Assembly (NCBI RefSeq): GCF_030269365.1
Contig: NZ_BSTF01000008.1
Coordinates: 186,001 to 250,000 of the forward strand
Source of the DNA: Lentzea sp. NBRC 102530
Lineage (GTDB): Bacteria; Actinomycetota; Actinomycetes; Mycobacteriales; Pseudonocardiaceae
Length of the DNA: 64,000 bases
Direction: 5' to 3'
Part shown: positions 47,153 to 57,443 of the stretch, piece after piece
How positions within the stretch are numbered: position 1 is the first letter of the stretch
How the letters are laid out: each line of letters starts with the position of its first letter
The notes under the pieces: generated by a model
Databases searched by the model: none
Told to the model about the DNA's origin: nothing
What the model saw: only the letters and a program-made list of their open reading frames with translations
Translations under genes and position numbers: made by a program

Positions 47153-47448
47153 CACATGCCGCGCAGGCGGCGTACCTCGTCGAGCAGGCGTCTGACGTCC
47201 TCAGCCGAGTTTCCGACGAAGTCCACGAGCGCGTCGAGCCGGGCGTCGGGCGAAATCCACTGCTCGTTCCCGGCGAAGACGTCCACGTACAGCTCCAGGT
47301 CGTCGGGTGAGTCGCCGTCGAGCGCGACGAAGCTGCACCCGCCGGTTGCGCCCTGGGTCTCGAGCCACGTCGTCCACGGCTGCGGTGCCACGTCGAGCGC
47401 GCGGGTCAGGCGTTGCTCGATGGCCGCGAGGTCGTCGTCGGAGATCAC
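47152..47448 (-). CDS. small hypothetical protein (98 aa)
   Basis: 98-aa acidic soluble protein (ISDDDLAAIEQRLTRALDVAPQPWTTWLETQGATGGCSFVALDGD..) with no membrane or export signal. It starts within the stop of the 3-hydroxyacyl-CoA dehydrogenase gene (4-nt overlap) and is the last gene of the operon before a strong hairpin. I do not recognise a domain. Confidence 0.7.
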   Translation of the reverse strand: MISDDDLAAIEQRLTRALDVAPQPWTTWLETQGATGGCSFVALDGDSPDDLELYVDVFAGNEQWISPDARLDALVDFVGNSAEDVRRLLDEVRRLRGM

Positions 47449-48308
47449 TTCGCGTAGTTGTGGAAGCCGCGGCCCGACTTCTTGCCGAGCAGGCCCGCGT
47501 CCACCATGCGCAGCAGCAGCGGCGGCGGGGAGAACAGCGGCTCCTTGAACTCGTCGTACATCGACTCGGCGATGGCCTTGGTGGTGTCGAGGCCGATCAG
47601 GTCGGTGAGGCGCAGCGGGCCCATCGGGTGGGCGCAGCCGAGCACCATGCCGTTGTCGATGTCGTCGGCCGAGGCGAAGCCGGACTCCAGCATGCGGATC
47701 GACGAGAGCAGGTACGGGATCAGCAGCGCGTTGACCACGAAGCCGGCGCGGTCCTGAGAGCGGATGACCTCCTTGCCCAGCACCGTGCGCACGAACGTCT
47801 CGGCGCGGTCCTGGGTGGCGGCGCCGGTCAGCAGCGACGGCACGATCTCGACCAGCTTCAGCACCGGCACCGGGTTGAAGAAGTGCACGCCGATGACCTG
47901 CTCGGGGCGGTTGGTCGCCATGCCGAGCTTCATGATCGGGATGGACGACGTGTTGGACGCGAAGATGGCGTCCTCGTCCTTCACGACCTTGTCGAGGGCG
48001 GTGAAGATCTCGGTCTTGATCTGCTCGTTCTCGGCGACGGCCTCGACCACGAACTGGCGGTCGGCGAAGTCACCGATGTCGGTGGTGAACCGGATGCGCG
48101 CGAGCGCGGCGTCGCGGTCCTCCTCGCTGAGCTTGCCGGACTTGACGCCCCTGGCGAGCGAGGTGGCGATCCGCCCCTGCGCTGCCTCGGCCGCGCTCGC
48201 GTTGACCTCGACGACGATGACGTCGAGACCGGCACGAGCGCTCACTTCGGCGATTCCGGAGCCCATGAGACCGGAACCGACGACTCCTACCCGCTGAATG
48301 TCACTCAC
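47445..48308 (-). CDS. 3-hydroxybutyryl-CoA dehydrogenase
   Basis: 287-aa enzyme. The NAD-binding Rossmann motif GSGLMGSGIAEVSARAGLDVIVVEVN is at residues 11-36; the catalytic His and Glu lie in IGVHFFNPVPVLKLVEIV, and the C-terminal 3HCDH domain is present (GFVVNALLIPYLLSSIRMLESGFASADDIDNGMVLGCAHPMGPLRLTDLIGLD). It reduces or oxidises 3-hydroxyacyl-CoA in butyrate/PHB or beta-oxidation metabolism. Overlaps: 8 nt with the upstream epimerase, 4 nt with the small gene downstream. Confidence 0.93.
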   Translation of the reverse strand: MSDIQRVGVVGSGLMGSGIAEVSARAGLDVIVVEVNASAAEAAQGRIATSLARGVKSGKLSEEDRDAALARIRFTTDIGDFADRQFVVEAVAENEQIKTEIFTALDKVVKDEDAIFASNTSSIPIMKLGMATNRPEQVIGVHFFNPVPVLKLVEIVPSLLTGAATQDRAETFVRTVLGKEVIRSQDRAGFVVNALLIPYLLSSIRMLESGFASADDIDNGMVLGCAHPMGPLRLTDLIGLDTTKAIAESMYDEFKEPLFSPPPLLLRMVDAGLLGKKSGRGFHNYAK

Positions 48309-49191
48309 GCGCCCGATACTGCCATGAGCTGGTCGAAGCCAGGTCGTGGAGAGTCTCCTGCACGGTGGTCGCGTAGTCGCCGACCGGCCGGTAGCCCAGC
48401 GCCACCGCCGCCGAGGTGTCGAGGACGAAGCCGCGGCGCCACGGGTGCAGGCCCGCCTCGGAGTGGTCCAGCAGGATCTCGTGCCACCGGTGGCCGAAGT
48501 GGCCCGCGATGATCCGCGAGATCTCCAGGCCGTTCGGCGCGTCCGGGTCGGCGGCGTTCAGCACGCGGGCGCCGGGGTGCGCAGCGACCGTCTCGATCAA
48601 CGCGGCCAGGTTCGCGGCGGCGGTCGGGTGGTCGACGCCCTCGCCCCGGTCCGCCAGCACGACGACCTTGTGGCCCGCGGCGATCCGGTCGACGAAGTAC
48701 GACTCCAGCGGGCGCCGGTTGCCCGGACCGTGCACTTTGGACGGCCGCAGCACGGTGACCGGCAGGCCGCTGTCGAGCAACGTCCGTTCCGCCGCCACCT
48801 TGTTCGGTCCGTAGCCGTCGCGGGTGAACGGGTCCGACTCGAGCGGAGCCAGCGTCGGCTGCTCCTCGGTCACCGGACCGTCGAAGCGCGGCGCGTCAGC
48901 CGAGTTCGCATGGCGGCCGGCCGAGTCCACGTACACGGCCTTGGCCGAGATCATCACGACGGAACGGGCCTTGCGCGCCAACGGCAGCAAGGTCCGCGCA
49001 TTCGTGGCCGAGTAGCAGAGGCAGTCGACCAGGAGGTCCGCGCCGTCGCCCATCGCGCGGTCCAGCGCGGCGGGGTCGGCCCGGTCCACCTCGCTGCCGA
49101 CCGCGTCCACGGTCCAGCCGGAGGCCCGCAGACGGCGAGCGGCGGCACGGCCGATGAGGCCCGTGCCGCCGAGGATCAACGCTCGTCTCAA
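48301..49191 (-). CDS. NAD-dependent epimerase/dehydratase family protein
   Basis: 296-aa extended short-chain dehydrogenase. It has GGTGLIGRAAARRLRASGW (NAD site), the AKAVYV segment, GYGPNKVAAERTLL (YxxxK) and VLRPSKVHGPGNRRPLESYFVDRI. The substrate is likely a nucleotide sugar or other small molecule, but is not determinable. The start overlaps the permease stop (ATGA) and the stop overlaps the next gene by 8 nt, so it is in the middle of a tight operon. Confidence 0.85.
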   Translation of the reverse strand: MRRALILGGTGLIGRAAARRLRASGWTVDAVGSEVDRADPAALDRAMGDGADLLVDCLCYSATNARTLLPLARKARSVVMISAKAVYVDSAGRHANSADAPRFDGPVTEEQPTLAPLESDPFTRDGYGPNKVAAERTLLDSGLPVTVLRPSKVHGPGNRRPLESYFVDRIAAGHKVVVLADRGEGVDHPTAAANLAALIETVAAHPGARVLNAADPDAPNGLEISRIIAGHFGHRWHEILLDHSEAGLHPWRRGFVLDTSAAVALGYRPVGDYATTVQETLHDLASTSSWQYRARE

Positions 49192-50612
49192 TCGAGTTCC
49201 GCCTCTGCCTTGGCGATCGCCGCGAACTCCTCCTCCGGAGCGTTCGCGACCAGGTGATGCCGACTGTAGAACCAGTAGTACGCAACGGCGACCACGACGA
49301 TGCCCGCCGTCACGGCAGCAGCGACCTCGTCCACGAAGAACGTCGCGATGACCGCCGCAACGGCCAGAACGAGCGCCACGCCCGTGGTCACCACACCGCC
49401 AGGAGTCCGGTACGGCCGGGGGAGATCTGGCGCCGTCTTACGCAACACGATGTGCGACACCATCATCAGCACGTACGACAACGCGGCACCGAACACCGCG
49501 ATGTTGATGAGCCGCGCGCCACCCGTGACGGGGTCGATCGTCTTCATCGTGGTGGCCAGGACGAAACCGATGGTGCCCGGCACGATCAACGCCAGGTACG
49601 GCGTCTTGCGCTTGCCGGTCTTGGACAGCCAGCGGGGCAGGTATCCGGCGCGCGACAACGCGAACAGCTGCCGCGAGTACGCGTAGATGATCGAGAAGAA
49701 CGACGCGACCAGACCGGCCAGGCCGACGTAGTTCACGAGCTGGGCCAGGAAGGTGTCGCCGCCGTAGGCCGCCCGCACGGCTTCGGGCAACGGGTTTCCG
49801 GACGCCTCCAGCACCTTCGCGCCCGCACCGCCGGGGGCCACCAGGAGGATCGCCGCCGCGAACACCAGCAGCACCACCATCGCGCCGATGATGCCGCGCG
49901 GCATGTCCCGCTTGGGATCGCGCGCTTCCTCTGCGGCCAGTGGCACGCCCTCCACCGCCAGGAAGAACCAGATCGCGAACACGATCGCGCCCCAGGCACC
50001 GGTCACGCCCATCGGCAGGAACGAGCCGTCGCCGATGTCGAACAGCTTGGAGGAGTCGAACTTCGGGATCATGCCCGCCACGAACGCGACCAGCGCGACG
50101 ACCGCCACACCGGTGATCACGAACATCACCCGCAACGCCTCGCCGACGCCGTACAGGTGGATGCCGACGAACACGATGTAGCAGGCGAGGTACACCGGCC
50201 ACGTCGCGTCCAGCAGCCCCAGGGCCTTGATGTAGTCGCCGATGAACACCGAGATCGCCGCGGGAGCGATGGCGTACTCGATCAGGATGGCGATACCTGT
50301 TGCGTACCCGCCCAACGGGCCGAGCGCGCGCCTCGCGAAACCGTAGCCCGCACCCGCCACGGGGAGCGCGGAGGCCAGTTCGGCGAGACCGAACACCATG
50401 CACGTGTACATCGTCGCCATCAGGATCGTGGCGATCAGCAGCCCGCCCCAGCCGCCCTGGGCGAGGCCGAAGTTCCACCCGGCGAAGTCGCCGGAGATCA
50501 CGTACGAGACTCCCAGCCCGGCCAGCAGGACCCACCCCGCCGCGCCACGTTTGAGCTGTCGGTGCTCCAGGTAGTCGCTGCTCACCTTCTCGTACTCGAC
50601 GTGCTTGGCCAT
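49188..50612 (-). CDS. ethanolamine/amino-acid permease (APC family, Eat-like)
   Basis: 474-aa transporter with about 12 transmembrane helices. The YLEHRQLKRGAAGWVLLAGLGVSYVISGDFAGWNFGLAQGGWGGLLIATILMATMY N-terminus and YGFARRALGPLGGYATGIAILIEYAIAPAAISVFIGDY closely follow ethanolamine permeases. AGGAGT precedes ATG 50612. It is divergent from the gamma-glutamyl ligase operon over 111 nt, which supports ethanolamine (or a related amine) as substrate. An inverted repeat GGACT-N6-AGTCC (50615-50630) overlaps its ribosome site. Confidence 0.85.
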   Translation of the reverse strand: MAKHVEYEKVSSDYLEHRQLKRGAAGWVLLAGLGVSYVISGDFAGWNFGLAQGGWGGLLIATILMATMYTCMVFGLAELASALPVAGAGYGFARRALGPLGGYATGIAILIEYAIAPAAISVFIGDYIKALGLLDATWPVYLACYIVFVGIHLYGVGEALRVMFVITGVAVVALVAFVAGMIPKFDSSKLFDIGDGSFLPMGVTGAWGAIVFAIWFFLAVEGVPLAAEEARDPKRDMPRGIIGAMVVLLVFAAAILLVAPGGAGAKVLEASGNPLPEAVRAAYGGDTFLAQLVNYVGLAGLVASFFSIIYAYSRQLFALSRAGYLPRWLSKTGKRKTPYLALIVPGTIGFVLATTMKTIDPVTGGARLINIAVFGAALSYVLMMVSHIVLRKTAPDLPRPYRTPGGVVTTGVALVLAVAAVIATFFVDEVAAAVTAGIVVVAVAYYWFYSRHHLVANAPEEEFAAIAKAEAELD

Positions 50613-50723
50613 ATGGACTCCTAATAGTCCTTTGAGCGGTGGTTGAGGGTGGCGCTCGTCACCCGGTGGTGTCAAGATGATGCCGCCAATGGCTCGCAGA
50701 CATACCTTTGGAGGAACGCGGAG

Positions 50724-52064
50724 ATGCTGACCGTCGAGGAGTTGCGCGAGGCCGTGGACGCCGGTGAGATCGACACCGTCCTGGTCGCGATCGTGGACAT
50801 GCAGGGCCGCCTGCAGGGCAAGCGCTGTGCCGCGCAGTACTTCCTCGACGAGGTCCTCGGCCACTCCGCGGAGGGCTGCAACTACCTGATGGCCGTCGAC
50901 GTCGAGATGAACCCCGTCAGCGGCTTCGAGATGTCGAGCTGGGAACGCGGGTACGGCGACTTCGTCATGAAGCCCGACATCGACACGCTCCGCCGCGTGC
51001 CGTGGCAGGAGGGCACCGCCCTCGTCCTGTGCGACGTCGTCTGGGAGAACGGCGACCCGGTCGTCGCGTCGCCGCGGCAGGTCCTGCGCAAGCAGCTCGA
51101 CCGGCTCGCCGCGCTCGGCCTCGACTGCTACGTCGGCACCGAGCTGGAGTTCATCGTCTTCGACGACACCTACGAGCAGGCCTGGAACGCCGGCTACCGC
51201 AACCTCACGCCGTCCAACCAGTACAACGTCGACTACTCGTTGCTCGGCACCGCGCGCGTGGAACCGTTGCTGCGCGCCATCCGCAACGGGATGACGGGCG
51301 CGGGCATGGTGGTGGAGTCGGCCAAGGGCGAGTGCAACCCCGGCCAGCACGAGATCGCGTTCAAGTACACGACGGCGTTGCGCACGTGCGACCAGCACGC
51401 GATCTACAAGAACGGCTCCAAGGAGATCGCCTCCCAGCAGGGCAAGGCGCTCACGTTCATGGCGAAGTACAACGAACGCGAGGGCAACTCCTGCCACATC
51501 CACCTCTCCCTGCGCTCCAAGGAAGGCGAGCCGGTCTTCGCCGAGGGCCACGGCATGTCCGAGCTGATGAAGCACTTCCTCGCCGGGCAGCTGGCGGGGC
51601 TGCGCGAGCTCACCTACTTCCTCGCCCCGAACATCAACTCCTACAAGCGGTACGTGCAGGGTTCGTTCGCCCCGACCGCCGTCGCGTGGGGCCGGGACAA
51701 CCGCACGTGCGCGCTGCGCGTCGTCGGCCACGGCCACGGGTTGCGGTTCGAGAACCGGGTACCTGGCGGCGACGTGAACCCGTACCTCGCGGTGGCGGCG
51801 CTGATCGCGGCCGGCCTGCACGGCGTCGAGCAGAAGCTGGAACTGGAGGACGAGTTCGTCGGCAACGCCTACGCGTCCGACCGGCCGACCGTGCCCACGA
51901 CGCTGAAGGAAGCCGCGGACCTGCTGGCGGGCAGCAAGATCGCACGCGAGGCGTTCGGCGAGGACGTCGTCACCCACTACCTCAACGCGGCCGAGGTCGA
52001 GCTGGCCGCGTTCGAGGCGGCGGTCACGGACTGGGAGAAGGTGCGCGGGTTTGAGCGCCTCTAA
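50724..52064 (+). CDS. glutamine-synthetase-like gamma-glutamyl ligase (GlnA4/PuuA-type)
   Basis: 446-aa GS-fold ligase. The active-site signatures YVGTELEFIVF, ESAKGECNPGQHEIAFKYT, GKALTFMAKYNEREGNSCHIHLSL and NSYKRYVQGSFAPTAVAWGRDNRTCALRV are present; the C-terminal adenylylation tyrosine region of true GSI is not recognisable. GlnA-like proteins of this type ligate glutamate to amines: GlnA3 acts on polyamines and GlnA4 on monoethanolamine in Streptomyces coelicolor. The adjacent ethanolamine-type permease favours the latter (inference). GGAGG precedes ATG 50724. First gene of the operon. Confidence 0.85.
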   Translation: MLTVEELREAVDAGEIDTVLVAIVDMQGRLQGKRCAAQYFLDEVLGHSAEGCNYLMAVDVEMNPVSGFEMSSWERGYGDFVMKPDIDTLRRVPWQEGTALVLCDVVWENGDPVVASPRQVLRKQLDRLAALGLDCYVGTELEFIVFDDTYEQAWNAGYRNLTPSNQYNVDYSLLGTARVEPLLRAIRNGMTGAGMVVESAKGECNPGQHEIAFKYTTALRTCDQHAIYKNGSKEIASQQGKALTFMAKYNEREGNSCHIHLSLRSKEGEPVFAEGHGMSELMKHFLAGQLAGLRELTYFLAPNINSYKRYVQGSFAPTAVAWGRDNRTCALRVVGHGHGLRFENRVPGGDVNPYLAVAALIAAGLHGVEQKLELEDEFVGNAYASDRPTVPTTLKEAADLLAGSKIAREAFGEDVVTHYLNAAEVELAAFEAAVTDWEKVRGFERL

Positions 52065-52743
52065 GCCACTCATCGGCATCAGCACCTACCTGGAGCGCAC
52101 GCGGTTCGGGCTCTGGGACGTGGAAGCGGCGGTGCTCTACCGCGGCTACCTCGACTGCGTGGTGCAGGCCGGTGCCAACCCGGTCATGCTGCCGCCGGTC
52201 GGCACCTGGACCGCCGAGTCCATCGGATTCCTCGACGGCCTGGTGATCGCGGGCGGCGCGGACATCGACCCCGCCGCCTACGGGGCCGAGCGCGACGAAC
52301 GCACCGGGCAGCCGAGCCGGGACCGCGACGACGCCGAGTTCGCGCTCGTCGAGGCCGCGCTCAAGCTCGACCTGCCGGTGCTCGGCGTGTGCCGGGGCAT
52401 GCAGGTGCTCAACGTGGCGCTCGGCGGCACGCTGCACCAGCACATCGAGGGCCACAACGAGGCACCGGGCGTGTTCGGGCACACCGAGATCACCGTCGCG
52501 CCGGGCACACTGCTGCACGGCGTCCTGGGCGATCGAACGACCGTTCAGTGCCACCACCACCAGTCGCTGGACCGGATCGCGGACGGGCTGAGGATCACCG
52601 CGCAGGCCCCGGACGGCACGGTCGAGGCCGTCGAACTGGAGGGCGCGCGGTTCGTCGTCGGGGTGCAGTCGCACCCGGAGCAGGACATCGAGGACCTGAG
52701 GCTGTTCGACGCTCTTGTCGACGTTGCAAGGAGAAAAGCGTGA
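52051..52743 (+). CDS. gamma-glutamyl hydrolase, class I GATase-like (PuuD-type)
   Basis: 230-aa peptidase C26/GATase1-fold hydrolase. The nucleophile Cys sits in VLGVCRGMQVLNVALGGTLHQ (about residue 114), the His/Glu pair in FVVGVQSHPEQD. It cleaves gamma-glutamyl bonds, here probably after oxidation of the gamma-glutamylated amine. TTG 52051 is the only practical start before GISTYLERTRFG and overlaps the ligase gene by 14 nt. Confidence 0.9.
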   Translation: MSASKPLIGISTYLERTRFGLWDVEAAVLYRGYLDCVVQAGANPVMLPPVGTWTAESIGFLDGLVIAGGADIDPAAYGAERDERTGQPSRDRDDAEFALVEAALKLDLPVLGVCRGMQVLNVALGGTLHQHIEGHNEAPGVFGHTEITVAPGTLLHGVLGDRTTVQCHHHQSLDRIADGLRITAQAPDGTVEAVELEGARFVVGVQSHPEQDIEDLRLFDALVDVARRKA

Positions 52744-54092
52744 CCTTTGACGTCATCAACCCGGCCACCGAGAAGGTCGTGCGGTCCGTGCCGCACACGA
52801 CCCTCGGCGACACGGACGCGGCGATCGGCCGGGCGCAGAAGGCGTTCGAGACGTGGCGGCACGTCGCTCCCGGCGACCGCGCCCGGCTGCTGCGCAGGTT
52901 CGCCGAGGTCGTCGACTCCCACGTCGAGGAACTCGCGCTGCTGGAGGTCGAGAACTCCGGTCACACCATCGGCAACGCGCGGTGGGAGGCGGGCAACGTC
53001 CGCGACGTCCTGCAGTACTACTCGGCCGCGCCGGAACGCCAGTTCGGCCGGCAGATCCCAGTCGCGGGCGGCCTGGACGTGACGTTCCACGAACCGCTCG
53101 GCGTCGTCGGCGTGATCGTGCCGTGGAACTTCCCGATGCCCATCGCGGGCTGGGGGTTCGCCCCGGCGCTGGCGGCGGGCAACACGGTCGTCCTGAAGCC
53201 CGCCGAAGTGACTCCGCTGACCGCGATCCGCCTGGGCGAACTCGCCCTGGAAGCAGGCATCCCGGAAGGCGTTTTCCAGGTGCTGCCCGGCAAGGGCAGC
53301 GTCGTGGGCAACCGGTTCGTCACGCATCCGTTGGTGCGCAAGGTGGTCTTCACCGGCTCCACCGAGGTCGGCAAGCAGATCATGGCGGGCTGCGCCGACC
53401 AGGTGAAGCGGGTGACGCTGGAACTCGGCGGCAAGTCCGCCAACATCGTCTTCGCCGACTCGGACCTGGAGAAGGCCGCCGCCACCGCGCCGTACGGGGT
53501 GTTCGACAACGCAGGGCAGGACTGCTGCGCGCGGTCGCGGATCCTGGTGCAGGCAAGCGTCTACGACAGGTTCATGGAACTGCTGGAGCCCGCGGTCAAG
53601 GGCGTCAAGGTCGGCGAACCCGGCGACGAGGCCACCGAGATGGGGCCGCTCATCACCGCCGCGCACCTCGGCAAGGTCGCGTCTTACGTGCCAGACGACG
53701 AGCACGTGGCGTTCCGCGGCACCTCGCCGGACGGACCCGGTTTCTGGTTCCCGCCGACGGTGCTCACGCCGCCCGCAGACCACGTGACGGTCACCGAGGA
53801 GATCTTCGGCCCGGTCGTCGTCGTGCTGCCGTTCACCGACGAGGCCGACGCGATCCGCATCGCGAACGACTCGGAGTACGGGCTGTCCGGGTCGATCTGG
53901 ACGAACGACGTGGGCCGCGCGATCCGGGTGTCCCGTGCGGTCGAGGCCGGGAACCTGTCGGTGAACTCGCATTCGTCCGTCCGCTACTGGACCCCGTTCG
54001 GCGGCGTGAAGCAGTCGGGGCTCGGCCGTGAGCTCGGCCCCGACGCGCTGGACGCCTTCACCGAAGTCAAGAACGTCTTCATCGCAACCTGA
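52740..54092 (+). CDS. aldehyde dehydrogenase (PuuC-type)
   Basis: 450-aa NAD(P)+-dependent aldehyde dehydrogenase. The catalytic Cys lies in DNAGQDCCARSRI, the Glu in VTLELGGKSANIVF, with NFPMPI near the N-terminus for coenzyme binding and EEIFGPVVVV in the C-terminal part. It would oxidise the gamma-glutamyl aldehyde to the acid. AAGGAG precedes GTG 52740, which overlaps the hydrolase stop (GTGA). The N-terminus is about 25-30 residues shorter than most family members. Confidence 0.92.
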   Translation: MTFDVINPATEKVVRSVPHTTLGDTDAAIGRAQKAFETWRHVAPGDRARLLRRFAEVVDSHVEELALLEVENSGHTIGNARWEAGNVRDVLQYYSAAPERQFGRQIPVAGGLDVTFHEPLGVVGVIVPWNFPMPIAGWGFAPALAAGNTVVLKPAEVTPLTAIRLGELALEAGIPEGVFQVLPGKGSVVGNRFVTHPLVRKVVFTGSTEVGKQIMAGCADQVKRVTLELGGKSANIVFADSDLEKAAATAPYGVFDNAGQDCCARSRILVQASVYDRFMELLEPAVKGVKVGEPGDEATEMGPLITAAHLGKVASYVPDDEHVAFRGTSPDGPGFWFPPTVLTPPADHVTVTEEIFGPVVVVLPFTDEADAIRIANDSEYGLSGSIWTNDVGRAIRVSRAVEAGNLSVNSHSSVRYWTPFGGVKQSGLGRELGPDALDAFTEVKNVFIAT

Positions 54093-54124
54093 GTCCAGCC
54101 GGACCCGAGCAAGGAGAACAACTG

Positions 54125-54892
54125 ATGGTGCAGCGACTCGAAGGCCGCGTGGCCGTCGTGACGGGTGGCGGCAGCGGCATCGGACTCGCGACGGTGCGCC
54201 GGTTCGCGAGCGAGGGCGCGAAGGTCGTCGTCGCCGATCTCGACCCGGCGACCGGCAAAGCGGCGGCGGACGAGGTGGGCGGCCTGTTCGTCGGGGTCGA
54301 CGTGACCGACGAGGAACAGGTCAAGGCCCTCTTCCAGACCACAGTGGACACTTACGGCAAGCTGGACATCGCGTTCAACAACGCCGGCATTTCCCCGCCC
54401 GACGACGACTCGATCCTGACGACGGGCATCGAGGCGTGGGACCGCGTGCAGAAGGTGAACCTCACGTCGGTTTATTTGTGTTGCAAGTACGCCATCCCGC
54501 ACATGCAGGCCAACGGCAAGGGTTCCATCATCAACACGGCGTCGTTCGTGGCGACGATGGGCGCGGCGACGTCGCAGATCTCCTACACGGCGTCGAAGGG
54601 CGGCGTGCTCGCGATGTCGCGTGAGCTCGGTGTGCAGTTCGCGCGCGAGGGCATCCGCGTCAACGCCCTGTCGCCCGGCCCGGTGAACACCCCGCTGCTG
54701 CGGGAACTGTTCGCCAAGGACCCGGAGCGGGCCGCGCGCCGGCTCGTGCACGTGCCGATGGGCCGGTTCGCCGAACCTGAGGAAATCGCCGCCGCGGTCG
54801 CGTTCCTCGCGTCCGACGACTCGTCGTTCATGACCGCGTCGAACTTCCTCGTGGACGGCGGCATCGCCGGCGCGTACGTGACACCGCTCTAG
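54125..54892 (+). CDS. SDR-family oxidoreductase
   Basis: 255-aa classical short-chain dehydrogenase: TGGGSGIG cofactor loop (about 14-21), NNAG, catalytic Tyr/Lys in SYTASKGG and SPGPVNTPLL. In this operon it may oxidise the hydroxyl of the gamma-glutamylated substrate (for example gamma-glutamylethanolamide) to the aldehyde used by the upstream dehydrogenase (inference). AGGAG precedes ATG 54125; 32-nt gap from the aldehyde dehydrogenase and 2 nt to the regulator gene. Confidence 0.92.
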   Translation: MVQRLEGRVAVVTGGGSGIGLATVRRFASEGAKVVVADLDPATGKAAADEVGGLFVGVDVTDEEQVKALFQTTVDTYGKLDIAFNNAGISPPDDDSILTTGIEAWDRVQKVNLTSVYLCCKYAIPHMQANGKGSIINTASFVATMGAATSQISYTASKGGVLAMSRELGVQFAREGIRVNALSPGPVNTPLLRELFAKDPERAARRLVHVPMGRFAEPEEIAAAVAFLASDDSSFMTASNFLVDGGIAGAYVTPL

Positions 54893-54894
54893 AC

Positions 54895-55593
54895 ATGATG
54901 GAGCACGCGCAGGACGCGTTGTTCCGCCCCGTGCGGGCGGGCAACGCGTTCGAGGAGACCGTCGAACGGCTCATGCAGTCCATCCGGCTCGGCGTCGTCG
55001 CGCCGGGGGAGCGTCTGCCGTCCGAACGAGACCTGGCCACCCGGCTCGGCGTGAGCCGGGTGACCGTGCGCGAGGCCATCAGGTCGTTGCAGGAGAACCA
55101 TTACGTCGAGTCCCGAAGGGGGCGCTACGGGGGCACGTTCGTCAACGAGGTGCTGCCGAAGTCCGCGCCCGGCAAGGACTTCGGTGACCTGCACGACGTG
55201 CTGACGTTGCGCAGGGTGCTGGAGACCGGCGCGGCGGAGACGGCGGCGGGCCGGTCGCTCGGTCCCGCCGAACGCCGGGGTTTGCGCGCCCGGCTGGAAG
55301 AAGCGTCCACTTCGACGCTCGCCGAATACCGCCGCAAGGACTCGCGGCTGCACCTCGCGATCGCCGAGGCCACCGGGTCCGCGGCGCTCACCGCCGCCGT
55401 CGCCGAGGCGCGGATGCGCGCCAACGAGCTGCTGGACCACATCCCGCTGCTCGAACCGAACCTCGCGCACTCCAACGCCCAGCACGAGCGCATCATCGCT
55501 TCCATTTTGGACGGAGACCCGGCGACGGCCCGGCAGGCGATGGCCGAACACCTCGACGGGACGGCGTCGTTGTTGCGCGGATTCCTGGTCTGA
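54895..55593 (+). CDS. FadR/GntR-family transcriptional regulator
   Basis: 232-aa regulator. The GntR winged helix lies at about 18-75 (VERLMQSIRLGVVAPGERLPSERDLATRLGVSRVTVREAIRSLQENHYVESRRGRYGGTFV), and the C-terminal FCD domain contains a probable metal/ligand site (Asp/His residues in LHLAIAEATGS and HERIIASILDGD). It begins 2 nt after the SDR stop and is the last gene of the gamma-glutamyl operon, so is its probable regulator and perhaps that of the divergent permease. Confidence 0.93.
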   Translation: MMEHAQDALFRPVRAGNAFEETVERLMQSIRLGVVAPGERLPSERDLATRLGVSRVTVREAIRSLQENHYVESRRGRYGGTFVNEVLPKSAPGKDFGDLHDVLTLRRVLETGAAETAAGRSLGPAERRGLRARLEEASTSTLAEYRRKDSRLHLAIAEATGSAALTAAVAEARMRANELLDHIPLLEPNLAHSNAQHERIIASILDGDPATARQAMAEHLDGTASLLRGFLV

Positions 55594-55799: not shown

Positions 55800-57443
55800 A
55801 TGCCAGGGTTGCGCAAGGTGTTTCGCGACGCCATGGGCCGGGTGCACTCACTCCGTGTTCTCTCCGCGGCGGGCATGGTGAGCCTGACGAACTTCAAGAT
55901 GTCCGTGGAGGCGCTGCGAGAGGTCAAGGTCTGGGGGCCGAACGTGACGGCGCTGCGGCGGTCCGTCCGGCTGAACCCCGACGGCGTCGCGGTCGTCGAC
56001 GAACGCGGTTCGGTGACCTACCGGCAACTCGACCGGCGTTCCAACGCGATCGCCCAGGGCCTGCGGTCACTGGGCGTGCAGCACACGCACATCGTCGCGT
56101 TGATGTGCCGCAACCACCGCGGCATGGTCGAGTCGCTGCTCGCGTGCGCGAAGCTCGGCGTCCGCGTCCTGCTGGTCAACACGGGCTTCGGCGCGCCCGT
56201 AGTGCTGGACCTGCTGCAACGCGAACGCGCGTCGCTGGTGATCCACGACGAGGAGTTCACCCCGCTGTTCCACCAGTTGCCGCCGTCGATCCCGCGCTGG
56301 CTCGCCTGGTCGCGCGACGGCCTCGACCGCCGCACGCCGACGCTGGACCAACTGGTCGCCAAGGCGCCGCGGGGTGAGCTGGAACCGCCGCGCGAACCCG
56401 GCGTCGTGATCCAGCTGACCTCCGGCACCACCGGCACGCCGAAGGGCACGGCCCGCGAGATCAAGTCGGTGCTGACGGCGTCGGACTTCCTCGACCGCAT
56501 CCCGATGCGCTCGGGCGAGTCGACGTTCATCGCCGCGCCGATCTTCCACTCCGTCGGCTACTCGCACCTGACGCTCGCGATGTCGCTGGGCTCGCGCGCG
56601 GTGCTGCACCGCCGGTTCGACCCGCGCAAGACGCTGTGGTCGGTGCAGGGCCAGCGGTGCACGACGCTGGTGCTGGTGCCGACGATGCTGCAGCGGATCA
56701 TGGAACTCGACCGGCACGTGATCGACTCGTTCGACCTGTCGCACCTGAGCGTCGTGTTCTCCTCGGGCGCGCCGATCTCGCCGGACCTCGTCGAACGCAC
56801 CCAGGCCGTGCTCGGCCCCGTGCTCTACAACCTCTACGGCTCAACGGAAGTCGCCGTCGCCACCGTCGCCACCCCCGAGGACCTCGCGGCCGCGCCGTCC
56901 AGCGTCGGCCTGCCCCCGCACAACTGCCTCGTGCGCCTCTACGACGAAGAAGGCAACCGCATCACGCGTTCGTTCGTGACCGGCCGCATCTACGTGCGCG
57001 GCTCGTTGACCGTGGACCTCTACACGGACGGCACGCAGAAGGACTCCATCGACGGCCTCGTGTCGACCGGCGACCTAGGCCACTTCGACCCCAGTGGCCG
57101 GCTGTACTTCGACGGACGCGAGGACGACATGATCGTCTCCGGCGGCGAGAACGTGTACCCGGTCGAGGTCGAGAACCTGCTGATGACGCACTACCGGGTG
57201 CGTGACGCGGCGGTGCTCGGCGTACCGGACGCCGAGTACGGGCAACGGTTGCGCGCGTTCGTGGTGCCGGTGGCGGGGACGCGGATCGACGTGCGCGAGC
57301 TGCGCGAGTTCGTGCGGACCAGGCTGGCGCGGCACAAGGTCCCGCGCGAGGTCGTGGTCGTGCCGCAGCTGCCGCGCAACGCGACCGGCAAGGTGGTGCG
57401 GCGCCAGCTGCTCGCGATCCGGCTGGGACCGCAGGGTCACTAG
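55800..57443 (+). CDS. acyl-CoA synthetase (AMP-forming, ANL superfamily)
   Basis: 547-aa adenylating enzyme. The P-loop-like A3 motif is LTSGTTGTPKGT, A5 is LYGSTEVA, A7 STGDLG, A8 RLYFDGREDDMIVSGGENVYPVEVE and A10 PRNATGKVVRR (catalytic Lys). The acid substrate is unknown (fatty or aryl acid). ATG 55800 follows GAGGAG; translation from 55707 would add 31 residues over a promoter-like region. The palindromic operator at 55670 suggests LacI-family control. Confidence 0.9.
   Translation: MPGLRKVFRDAMGRVHSLRVLSAAGMVSLTNFKMSVEALREVKVWGPNVTALRRSVRLNPDGVAVVDERGSVTYRQLDRRSNAIAQGLRSLGVQHTHIVALMCRNHRGMVESLLACAKLGVRVLLVNTGFGAPVVLDLLQRERASLVIHDEEFTPLFHQLPPSIPRWLAWSRDGLDRRTPTLDQLVAKAPRGELEPPREPGVVIQLTSGTTGTPKGTAREIKSVLTASDFLDRIPMRSGESTFIAAPIFHSVGYSHLTLAMSLGSRAVLHRRFDPRKTLWSVQGQRCTTLVLVPTMLQRIMELDRHVIDSFDLSHLSVVFSSGAPISPDLVERTQAVLGPVLYNLYGSTEVAVATVATPEDLAAAPSSVGLPPHNCLVRLYDEEGNRITRSFVTGRIYVRGSLTVDLYTDGTQKDSIDGLVSTGDLGHFDPSGRLYFDGREDDMIVSGGENVYPVEVENLLMTHYRVRDAAVLGVPDAEYGQRLRAFVVPVAGTRIDVRELREFVRTRLARHKVPREVVVVPQLPRNATGKVVRRQLLAIRLGPQGH

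Follow-up and report, generated by a model that had tools for sequence, protein, structure and literature searches.

The 64,000-nucleotide stretch analysed here (the window; Lentzea sp. NBRC 102530, RefSeq assembly GCF_030269365.1, contig NZ_BSTF01000008.1, positions 186,001 to 250,000 of the forward strand) carries a divergent gene cluster built around a glutamine synthetase-like ligase, which we interpret as a predicted ethanolamine utilization locus. Eight intact open reading frames occupy positions 47445-55593 of the window, and the families that an earlier note on this DNA had assigned to them were confirmed. On the plus strand, the ligase (50724..52064) is followed by a Peptidase C26/PuuD-type hydrolase (52051..52743; TTG start), an aldehyde dehydrogenase (ALDH; 52740..54092; GTG start), a short-chain dehydrogenase/reductase (SDR; 54125..54892) and a regulator with GntR and FCD domains (54895..55593). 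An APC permease (49188..50612, minus strand) diverges from the ligase and is accompanied by an epimerase and a 3-hydroxyacyl-CoA dehydrogenase (HBDH). The gene overlaps reported in that note are real: ligase and hydrolase share 14 bp, hydrolase and ALDH 4 bp, permease and epimerase 4 bp, and epimerase and HBDH 8 bp; SDR and regulator are separated by a 2 bp gap.

Profile matches and motifs are consistent with these assignments. The hydrolase (PF07722) carries GVCRG at 112 and HPEQ at 208, the ALDH (PF00171) carries GQDC at 259 and LELGG at 227, and the SDR scores 506.1 bits against NF004713 (cut-off 404) and possesses TGGGSGIG, NNAG and YTASK motifs. The permease, which the earlier note had placed closest to ethanolamine transporters, indeed reaches 549.5 bits against the TIGR00908 ethanolamine permease equivalog (curated cut-off 381.75). 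Of the 9 matches that the 9.53 Mb genome contains, it alone exceeds that cut-off, and we predict that it is an ethanolamine importer.

Identity of the ligase

References for GlnA4, the gamma-glutamylethanolamide synthetase of Streptomyces coelicolor (SCO1613), were located through published glnA4 reverse transcription PCR primers, both matching exactly with a gap of about 221. This search gave 11 contigs, 10 titled Streptomyces and one titled 'Actinobacteria bacterium OV320', which we took as GlnA4 orthologues and refer to together as Streptomyces; the S. coelicoflavus orthologue stood in for SCO1613. S. coelicoflavus GlnA1 and GlnA2 were distinguished by score and place, and GlnA3 by its downstream gene, amidohydrolase-like by eye; the SCO6961 amidohydrolase has been described downstream of GlnA3 (PMC5403932).

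The window ligase (PF00120) is 69.6% identical to S. coelicoflavus GlnA4, versus 30.7% for GlnA1, 31.9% for GlnA2 and 27.8% for GlnA3 of the same species and 31.9% for E. coli PuuA. It falls below the curated cut-offs for type I glutamine synthetase (GSI; TIGR00653, 233.5 versus 429.15 bits), type III glutamine synthetase (242.6 versus 469.6 bits) and gamma-glutamylputrescine synthetase (NF045547, 190.2 versus 650 bits); the glutamine synthetase catalytic family has five matches in its genome. Among PDB chains, 11zs is 50.6% identical to the ligase and 5dm3, which we take to be from Chromohalobacter salexigens, is 47.1% identical, with alanine where GlnA4 has E269.

The earlier note had named phylogeny as a check on the ligase. 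We built a tree from 61 of 84 ligase rows, the other 23 having been removed by hand (near-copies, and locus L059, whose slice ends within the cluster and cuts the ligase); GlnII (L132) is absent, having given no usable match. The window ligase grouped with the Streptomyces GlnA4 rows, and GSI (GlnA1), GlnA2, GlnA3 and PuuA fell outside, an outcome under which the ethanolamine reading withstands the phylogenetic part of the refutation set out in that note. The GlnA4 side comprises 47 rows when 5dm3 and 11zs are counted in (support 98/96, starred) and 45 rows when they are left out (support 91/99, not starred).

Alignment to the published list of GlnA4 active-site residues (PMC6529630) further indicated that all 13 metal, glutamate, ATP and flap positions that could be placed are kept in the window ligase. 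E156, E158, E219, E226, E269, G270, H274 and H276 are kept by number, and R325, F331, R348, E359 and R361 after a two-residue shift, the S. coelicoflavus numbering running two later as read from the alignment. D69 and D81 could not be matched to the numbering: the residues there are N and V in the S. coelicoflavus protein and the window ligase alike. D186 of the ammonium pocket, whose positions the source gives as model-dependent, is also kept, and the valine found at position 189 of the S. coelicoflavus protein corresponds to a leucine of the window ligase. On identity, tree position and residues, we assign the ligase as an orthologue of GlnA4.

Other glutamine synthetase-like genes were seen along the way. 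A divergent group of ligases, from loci L107-L111, sits on the GlnA4 side of the tree. Ligases of L112-L115 are 34-38% identical to that of the window; the SDR, ALDH, C26 hydrolase and GntR/FCD genes near them are related only distantly, which may point to a separate gamma-glutamylation route acting on some other amine. One ligase copy, in a genome that is 74% complete, contains a single in-frame TGA (G056:C97:165534-166886). Finally, the window organism's own genome holds a glutamine synthetase-like gene on a lone long branch (G000:C10:358220-359209), beside a helicase-like gene identified by eye and with no clear counterpart among Streptomyces GlnA1-GlnA4.

Conservation of the gene neighbourhood

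We compared 20 congeneric loci, 11 Streptomyces loci (8-kb slices), 30 GlnA4-type loci from other genera, which we selected ourselves, and 10 paralogue loci. Homologues of the hydrolase, ALDH and SDR adjoin the ligase in all 20 congeneric loci and, each of them, in 29 of the 30 other-genus loci; Streptomyces slices contain the hydrolase in 9/11, the ALDH in 11/11 and the SDR in 8/11 cases. Because this linkage recurs across loci, a chance neighbourhood was rejected. A regulator homologue lies beside the ligase in 20/20 congeneric, 10/11 Streptomyces and 15/30 other-genus loci, and further downstream in 5 of the 30. More broadly, 32 of 40 relatives carry the ligase, and at the level of the order ligase matches turned up in 85 of 150 genomes (E up to 1e-60, paralogues included).

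Two further sets of neighbours were noted. An acyl-CoA synthetase-like gene, identified by eye, lies 3' of the regulator (55800-57443, plus strand); it adjoins the cluster in 20/20 congeneric but 0/30 other-genus loci and is thus probably a mere neighbour. In four of the 30 other-genus loci (L097, L106, L120 and L122), the 5.5 kb or so upstream of the ligase include a gene for an FAD oxidoreductase plus aminomethyltransferase-domain protein, its domains having been tested for L097 alone, which perhaps reflects sarcosine or dimethylglycine breakdown to glycine.

A candidate operator for the regulator

The intergenic region shared by permease and ligase has an operator-like site at each end. The stronger, CAATGG-N12-CCTTTG (50687..50710, plus strand), ends 13 bp 5' of the ligase start codon. 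A second, weaker site, ATATGG-N12-CCTTTG (10/12; 50611..50634, no strand assigned), overlaps the permease start codon, and its counterparts score 10-11/12 in 18/20 congeneric loci, below the threshold of the main counts. Visual inspection first revealed the element in the window and in 26 other loci, comprising congeners and another six from the family. In held-out loci, CAATGG-N12-CCWTTR at a threshold of at least 11/12 was present, anywhere in the locus, in 10/11 Streptomyces and 6/24 other-genus loci not previously printed, a count that had no shuffled control and in which L090 and L091, two of the six, belong to the same genus as the already printed L089; with G as the last letter and only sites upstream of cluster genes counted, the site was present in 3 of those 24. 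The CAATGG-N12-CCWTTR pattern occurs once in the window genome, which is weak alone, about one occurrence being expected by rough estimate.

Restricting the search to sites upstream of cluster genes, with G as the last letter, returned 20/20 congeneric, 9/11 Streptomyces, 7/30 other-genus and 0/10 paralogue loci. The corresponding maxima over 60 shuffled patterns (of 200 drawn) were 8, 0, 2 and 1, with means of 0.18, 0, 0.15 and 0.05, and none of the 60 matched any Streptomyces locus upstream of cluster genes. The symmetric form, CAAWGG-N12-CCWTTG, was found in 20/20 congeneric, 10/11 Streptomyces, 10/30 other-genus and 0/10 paralogue loci, and 100 shuffled half-sites gave maxima of 14, 1, 8 and 1 and means of 0.34, 0.01, 0.43 and 0.04 in the same order. 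All 43 near-matches to this form across the 71 loci (1.14 Mb) lie just upstream of cluster genes.

Occurrence of the site also tracks the regulator. Outside the genus, Streptomyces included, a site is present in 20/30 loci with a regulator and 0/11 without one (0/21 when paralogue loci are added), a contrast weakened by the fact that absence of the regulator was called from the fetched stretch alone, save for seven genomes searched whole (L087, L089-L093 and that of the window). The whole-genome search located a 67-71% identical orthologue further downstream in L089-L093, where the regulator had at first seemed absent, and these loci were counted as having it; L087, which has no operator site, gave no regulator orthologue at 1e-40 in its whole genome.

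The regulator is the counterpart of EpuRI (SCO1614), which represses glnA4 in S. coelicolor (PMC6529630) and binds the glnA4 and epuRI promoters in electrophoretic mobility shift assays (PMC8998196). The main text of PMC8998196 lacks the terms 'operator' and 'palindrom', and that of PMC6529630 lacks 'palindrom' and 'inverted repeat'. Overall, these comparisons point to the GntR/FCD protein as a predicted repressor of both divergent units, and CAAWGG-N12-CCWTTG is likely to be its binding site.

Exchange of the importer

The divergent slot is less uniform in content. Among the 20 congeneric loci it is occupied by a TIGR00908-type permease in 14, by another APC permease in five and by neither in one; the best model for one of the five replacements, the one tested, was TIGR00907, under its cut-off. 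Of the 30 loci from other genera, three have a TIGR00908-type permease (more than 500 bits to that of the window) near the ligase, four have the second type and nine a third, related type. The importer is exchangeable between APC permease types.

Extension of the cluster towards glycine cleavage

Six of nine fetched GlnA4-type loci from the same family but outside the genus have gcvP following the cluster, and the gcvP tested in one locus scored 1345.9 bits against TIGR00461 (cut-off 859.2). The longest arrangement, in two species of one sister genus (L147 and L148), has on one strand the ligase, hydrolase, ALDH, SDR, gcvP, gcvT, gcvH, glyA, sdaA and regulator genes in that order, separated by at most about 1 kb; gcvT, gcvH, glyA and sdaA of L147 exceed NCBIfam cut-offs, and those of L148 were recognized by their like sequences. 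Shorter versions have gcvP, a gcvT-like gene (L149) or gcvT-like frame (L150), sdaA (tested in both) and then the regulator, or gcvP and a gcvT-like gene with no regulator (L151). The single gcvP match of the window genome is on another contig. The gcvP-gcvT-gcvH-glyA-sdaA order fits glycine as the product, converted subsequently to serine and pyruvate. No description of an extended ethanolamine-to-glycine-cleavage cluster was present among the literature matches listed (titles and abstract openings).

Discussion

Overall, the basis for our interpretation is orthology, gene linkage, conserved residues and a conserved site, all read from sequence. We assign a probability of roughly 0.85 to the view that the cluster encodes a GlnA4-type route in which ethanolamine is gamma-glutamylated, controlled by a repressor of its own. 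The permease would import ethanolamine, which the ligase would couple to the gamma-carboxyl of glutamate using ATP. The SDR, as predicted gamma-glutamylethanolamide dehydrogenase, would oxidize the remaining alcohol to an aldehyde; the ALDH would convert this gamma-glutamyl-aminoacetaldehyde to gamma-glutamylglycine, and the C26 hydrolase would release glycine and regenerate glutamate. The regulator would sit on CAAWGG-N12-CCWTTG before both divergent units and be released when substrate is present. Because the amine would stay capped, no free aminoacetaldehyde or acetaldehyde would form, and a microcompartment would be unnecessary. While the ligase assignment draws on orthology, we infer the reactions of the SDR, ALDH and hydrolase, the transport of ethanolamine and the binding of the window regulator to its candidate operator.

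Published work on S. coelicolor provides direct precedent. GlnA4 makes gamma-glutamylethanolamide in vitro, a mutant cannot grow on ethanolamine, and in 2019 oxidation by SCO1611 and then SCO1612 followed by hydrolysis by SCO1615 was proposed to yield glycine and glutamate, with glycine as product itself part of the proposal (PMC6529630). The window SDR, ALDH and hydrolase are the counterparts of SCO1611, SCO1612 and SCO1615, respectively. The import, ligation, oxidation and hydrolysis scheme outlined in the earlier note thus matches a published one and is supported here. That note had regarded an SDR in the alcohol step as less expected; a short-chain dehydrogenase is named in the S. coelicolor cluster (Fig. 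2 legend), with SCO1611 assigned to alcohol oxidation (PMC6529630). Since the route has been published for SCO1611-1615, it was already known, SDR included (PMC6529630). To the extent that the literature was searched, the novel elements are the candidate operator, the exchange of importers and the extended clusters.

Comparison with this and other systems highlights common chemistry and variable parts. Judged through its S. coelicoflavus counterpart, SCO1610-SCO1615 has an orthologous ligase and homologous ALDH, SDR, C26 hydrolase and GntR/FCD proteins, and the chemistry proposed for it is the same (PMC6529630). Gene order differs, the hydrolase and regulator being divergent from the ligase in the S. 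coelicoflavus counterpart. The S. coelicolor cluster as described has no permease gene, in contrast to the TIGR00908 permease of the window, and Streptomyces permeases are reported to be unlike EutH and Eat (PMC6529630). A predicted ethanolamine route in Chromohalobacter salexigens likewise uses a PF00120 ligase and a PF00171 aldehyde dehydrogenase, but a PF00465 iron-dependent dehydrogenase replaces the SDR and a PF05013 amidohydrolase replaces the C26 enzyme (PMC9397018). The ethanolamine gamma-glutamylase cluster of Phaeobacter MED193, likened here by description only, follows the same reaction scheme and its proteins are raised on phosphatidylethanolamine; unlike the window, it has a TRAP transporter (EtoVWX) and an RpiR regulator (PMC10132767). 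E. coli Puu (PuuA, PuuC and PuuD) shares the logic of glutamate capping, oxidation and hydrolysis, but its substrate is putrescine, its ligase is distant from that of the window and the oxidase PuuB stands where the window has an alcohol dehydrogenase. The classical eut route (EutBC lyase) shares the substrate; we rejected it because EutB gave no matches in the 9.53 Mb genome of the window organism, with an E. coli control positive.

Several alternatives were weighed. The cluster might serve mainly to recycle ethanolamine from the cell's own phosphatidylethanolamine rather than to live on external ethanolamine. S. coelicolor has the enzymes without a permease, and the authors of that work suggest internal recycling (PMC6529630). 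We consider this improbable for the window, where an ethanolamine-family permease diverges from the ligase with operator-like sites at both ends of the shared region. The true substrate of the ligase might instead be a different small amino alcohol or monoamine, such as 1-amino-2-propanol or ethylamine: substrate range is unreadable from 69.6% identity alone, and divergent ligases without partner enzymes share its side of the tree. Against this quite improbable reading, GlnA4 was called ethanolamine-specific in a published panel (PMC6529630), D186, E269 and F331 are common to the window ligase and GlnA4, and the permease family and gcv/glyA/sdaA linkage fit ethanolamine and glycine. It is highly improbable that the HBDH and epimerase, which the earlier note had counted as less expected parts of the cluster, work in the route. 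The epimerase frame overlaps both the HBDH frame and that of the permease, but HBDH is near the ligase in 20/20 congeneric, 1/30 other-genus and 0/11 Streptomyces loci and persists in loci with a replaced permease, the epimerase occurs in only 9/20, 0/30 and 0/11, and no proposed step needs either. We therefore rejected both as pathway parts for want of conservation outside the genus, within which they are neighbours and not conserved cluster parts. Finally, degradation of a polyamine (putrescine, cadaverine or spermidine) by a PuuA/GlnA3-like route, an option left in the earlier note, is barely credible and was rejected on identity, profile cut-offs and tree: the ligase, ALDH and C26 hydrolase do match PuuA, PuuC and PuuD models, whose genes are clustered in E. 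coli, but all below cut-off, the ligase is far closer to GlnA4 than to GlnA2, GlnA3 or PuuA and far below the gamma-glutamylputrescine synthetase cut-off, profile searches identified no PuuB-like oxidase among the cluster genes, and S. coelicolor GlnA4 mutants are reported to grow on polyamines (PMC5403932, PMC8998196).

Several observations count against the ethanolamine route and its proposed regulation. The tree program warned of long branches (PuuA and others) and of unlike composition (11zs, GlnA3, L108 and L116). The ligases of L107-L111 (genomes G059, G046, G035, G049 and G043), 48-55% identical to that of the window, fall inside the drawn GlnA4 side, yet their fetched stretches contain no homologue that reaches 60 bits against the ALDH, SDR or hydrolase of the window; clade membership alone is thus no proof of substrate. 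The window ALDH scores below cut-off for several different ALDH families, so its substrate is not fixed by sequence. As to the operator, the consensus was adjusted twice on the same data (last letter to G, then CAAWGG), one shuffled control alone reached 14/20 congeneric, 1/11 Streptomyces and 8/30 other-genus loci with the symmetric form, another reached 8/20 congeneric loci with the last-G form, and 10 of the 20 loci outside both the genus and Streptomyces that do have a regulator lack a site at threshold. The gcv linkage is narrowly spread, in one part of one family, and therefore probably represents a single event.

Nevertheless, we conclude that the organism very probably imports ethanolamine, attaches glutamate to it and converts it to glycine. 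We also lean, if only slightly, towards a broader view, in which an EpuRI/FadR-type regulator paired with the CAAWGG-N12-CCWTTG operator defines a modular actinomycete regulon able to carry ethanolamine to pyruvate, the importer being freely swapped between APC families. The full form would comprise ligase, SDR, ALDH and hydrolase followed by glycine cleavage, serine hydroxymethyltransferase and serine ammonia-lyase, and the window would be the short form. These findings would extend the GlnA4 ethanolamine route beyond Streptomyces, here with a built-in ethanolamine-family permease, and make a precise candidate operator available for EpuRI-type repressors, while natural clusters with gcvP, gcvT, gcvH, glyA and sdaA support glycine as the product of the pathway.

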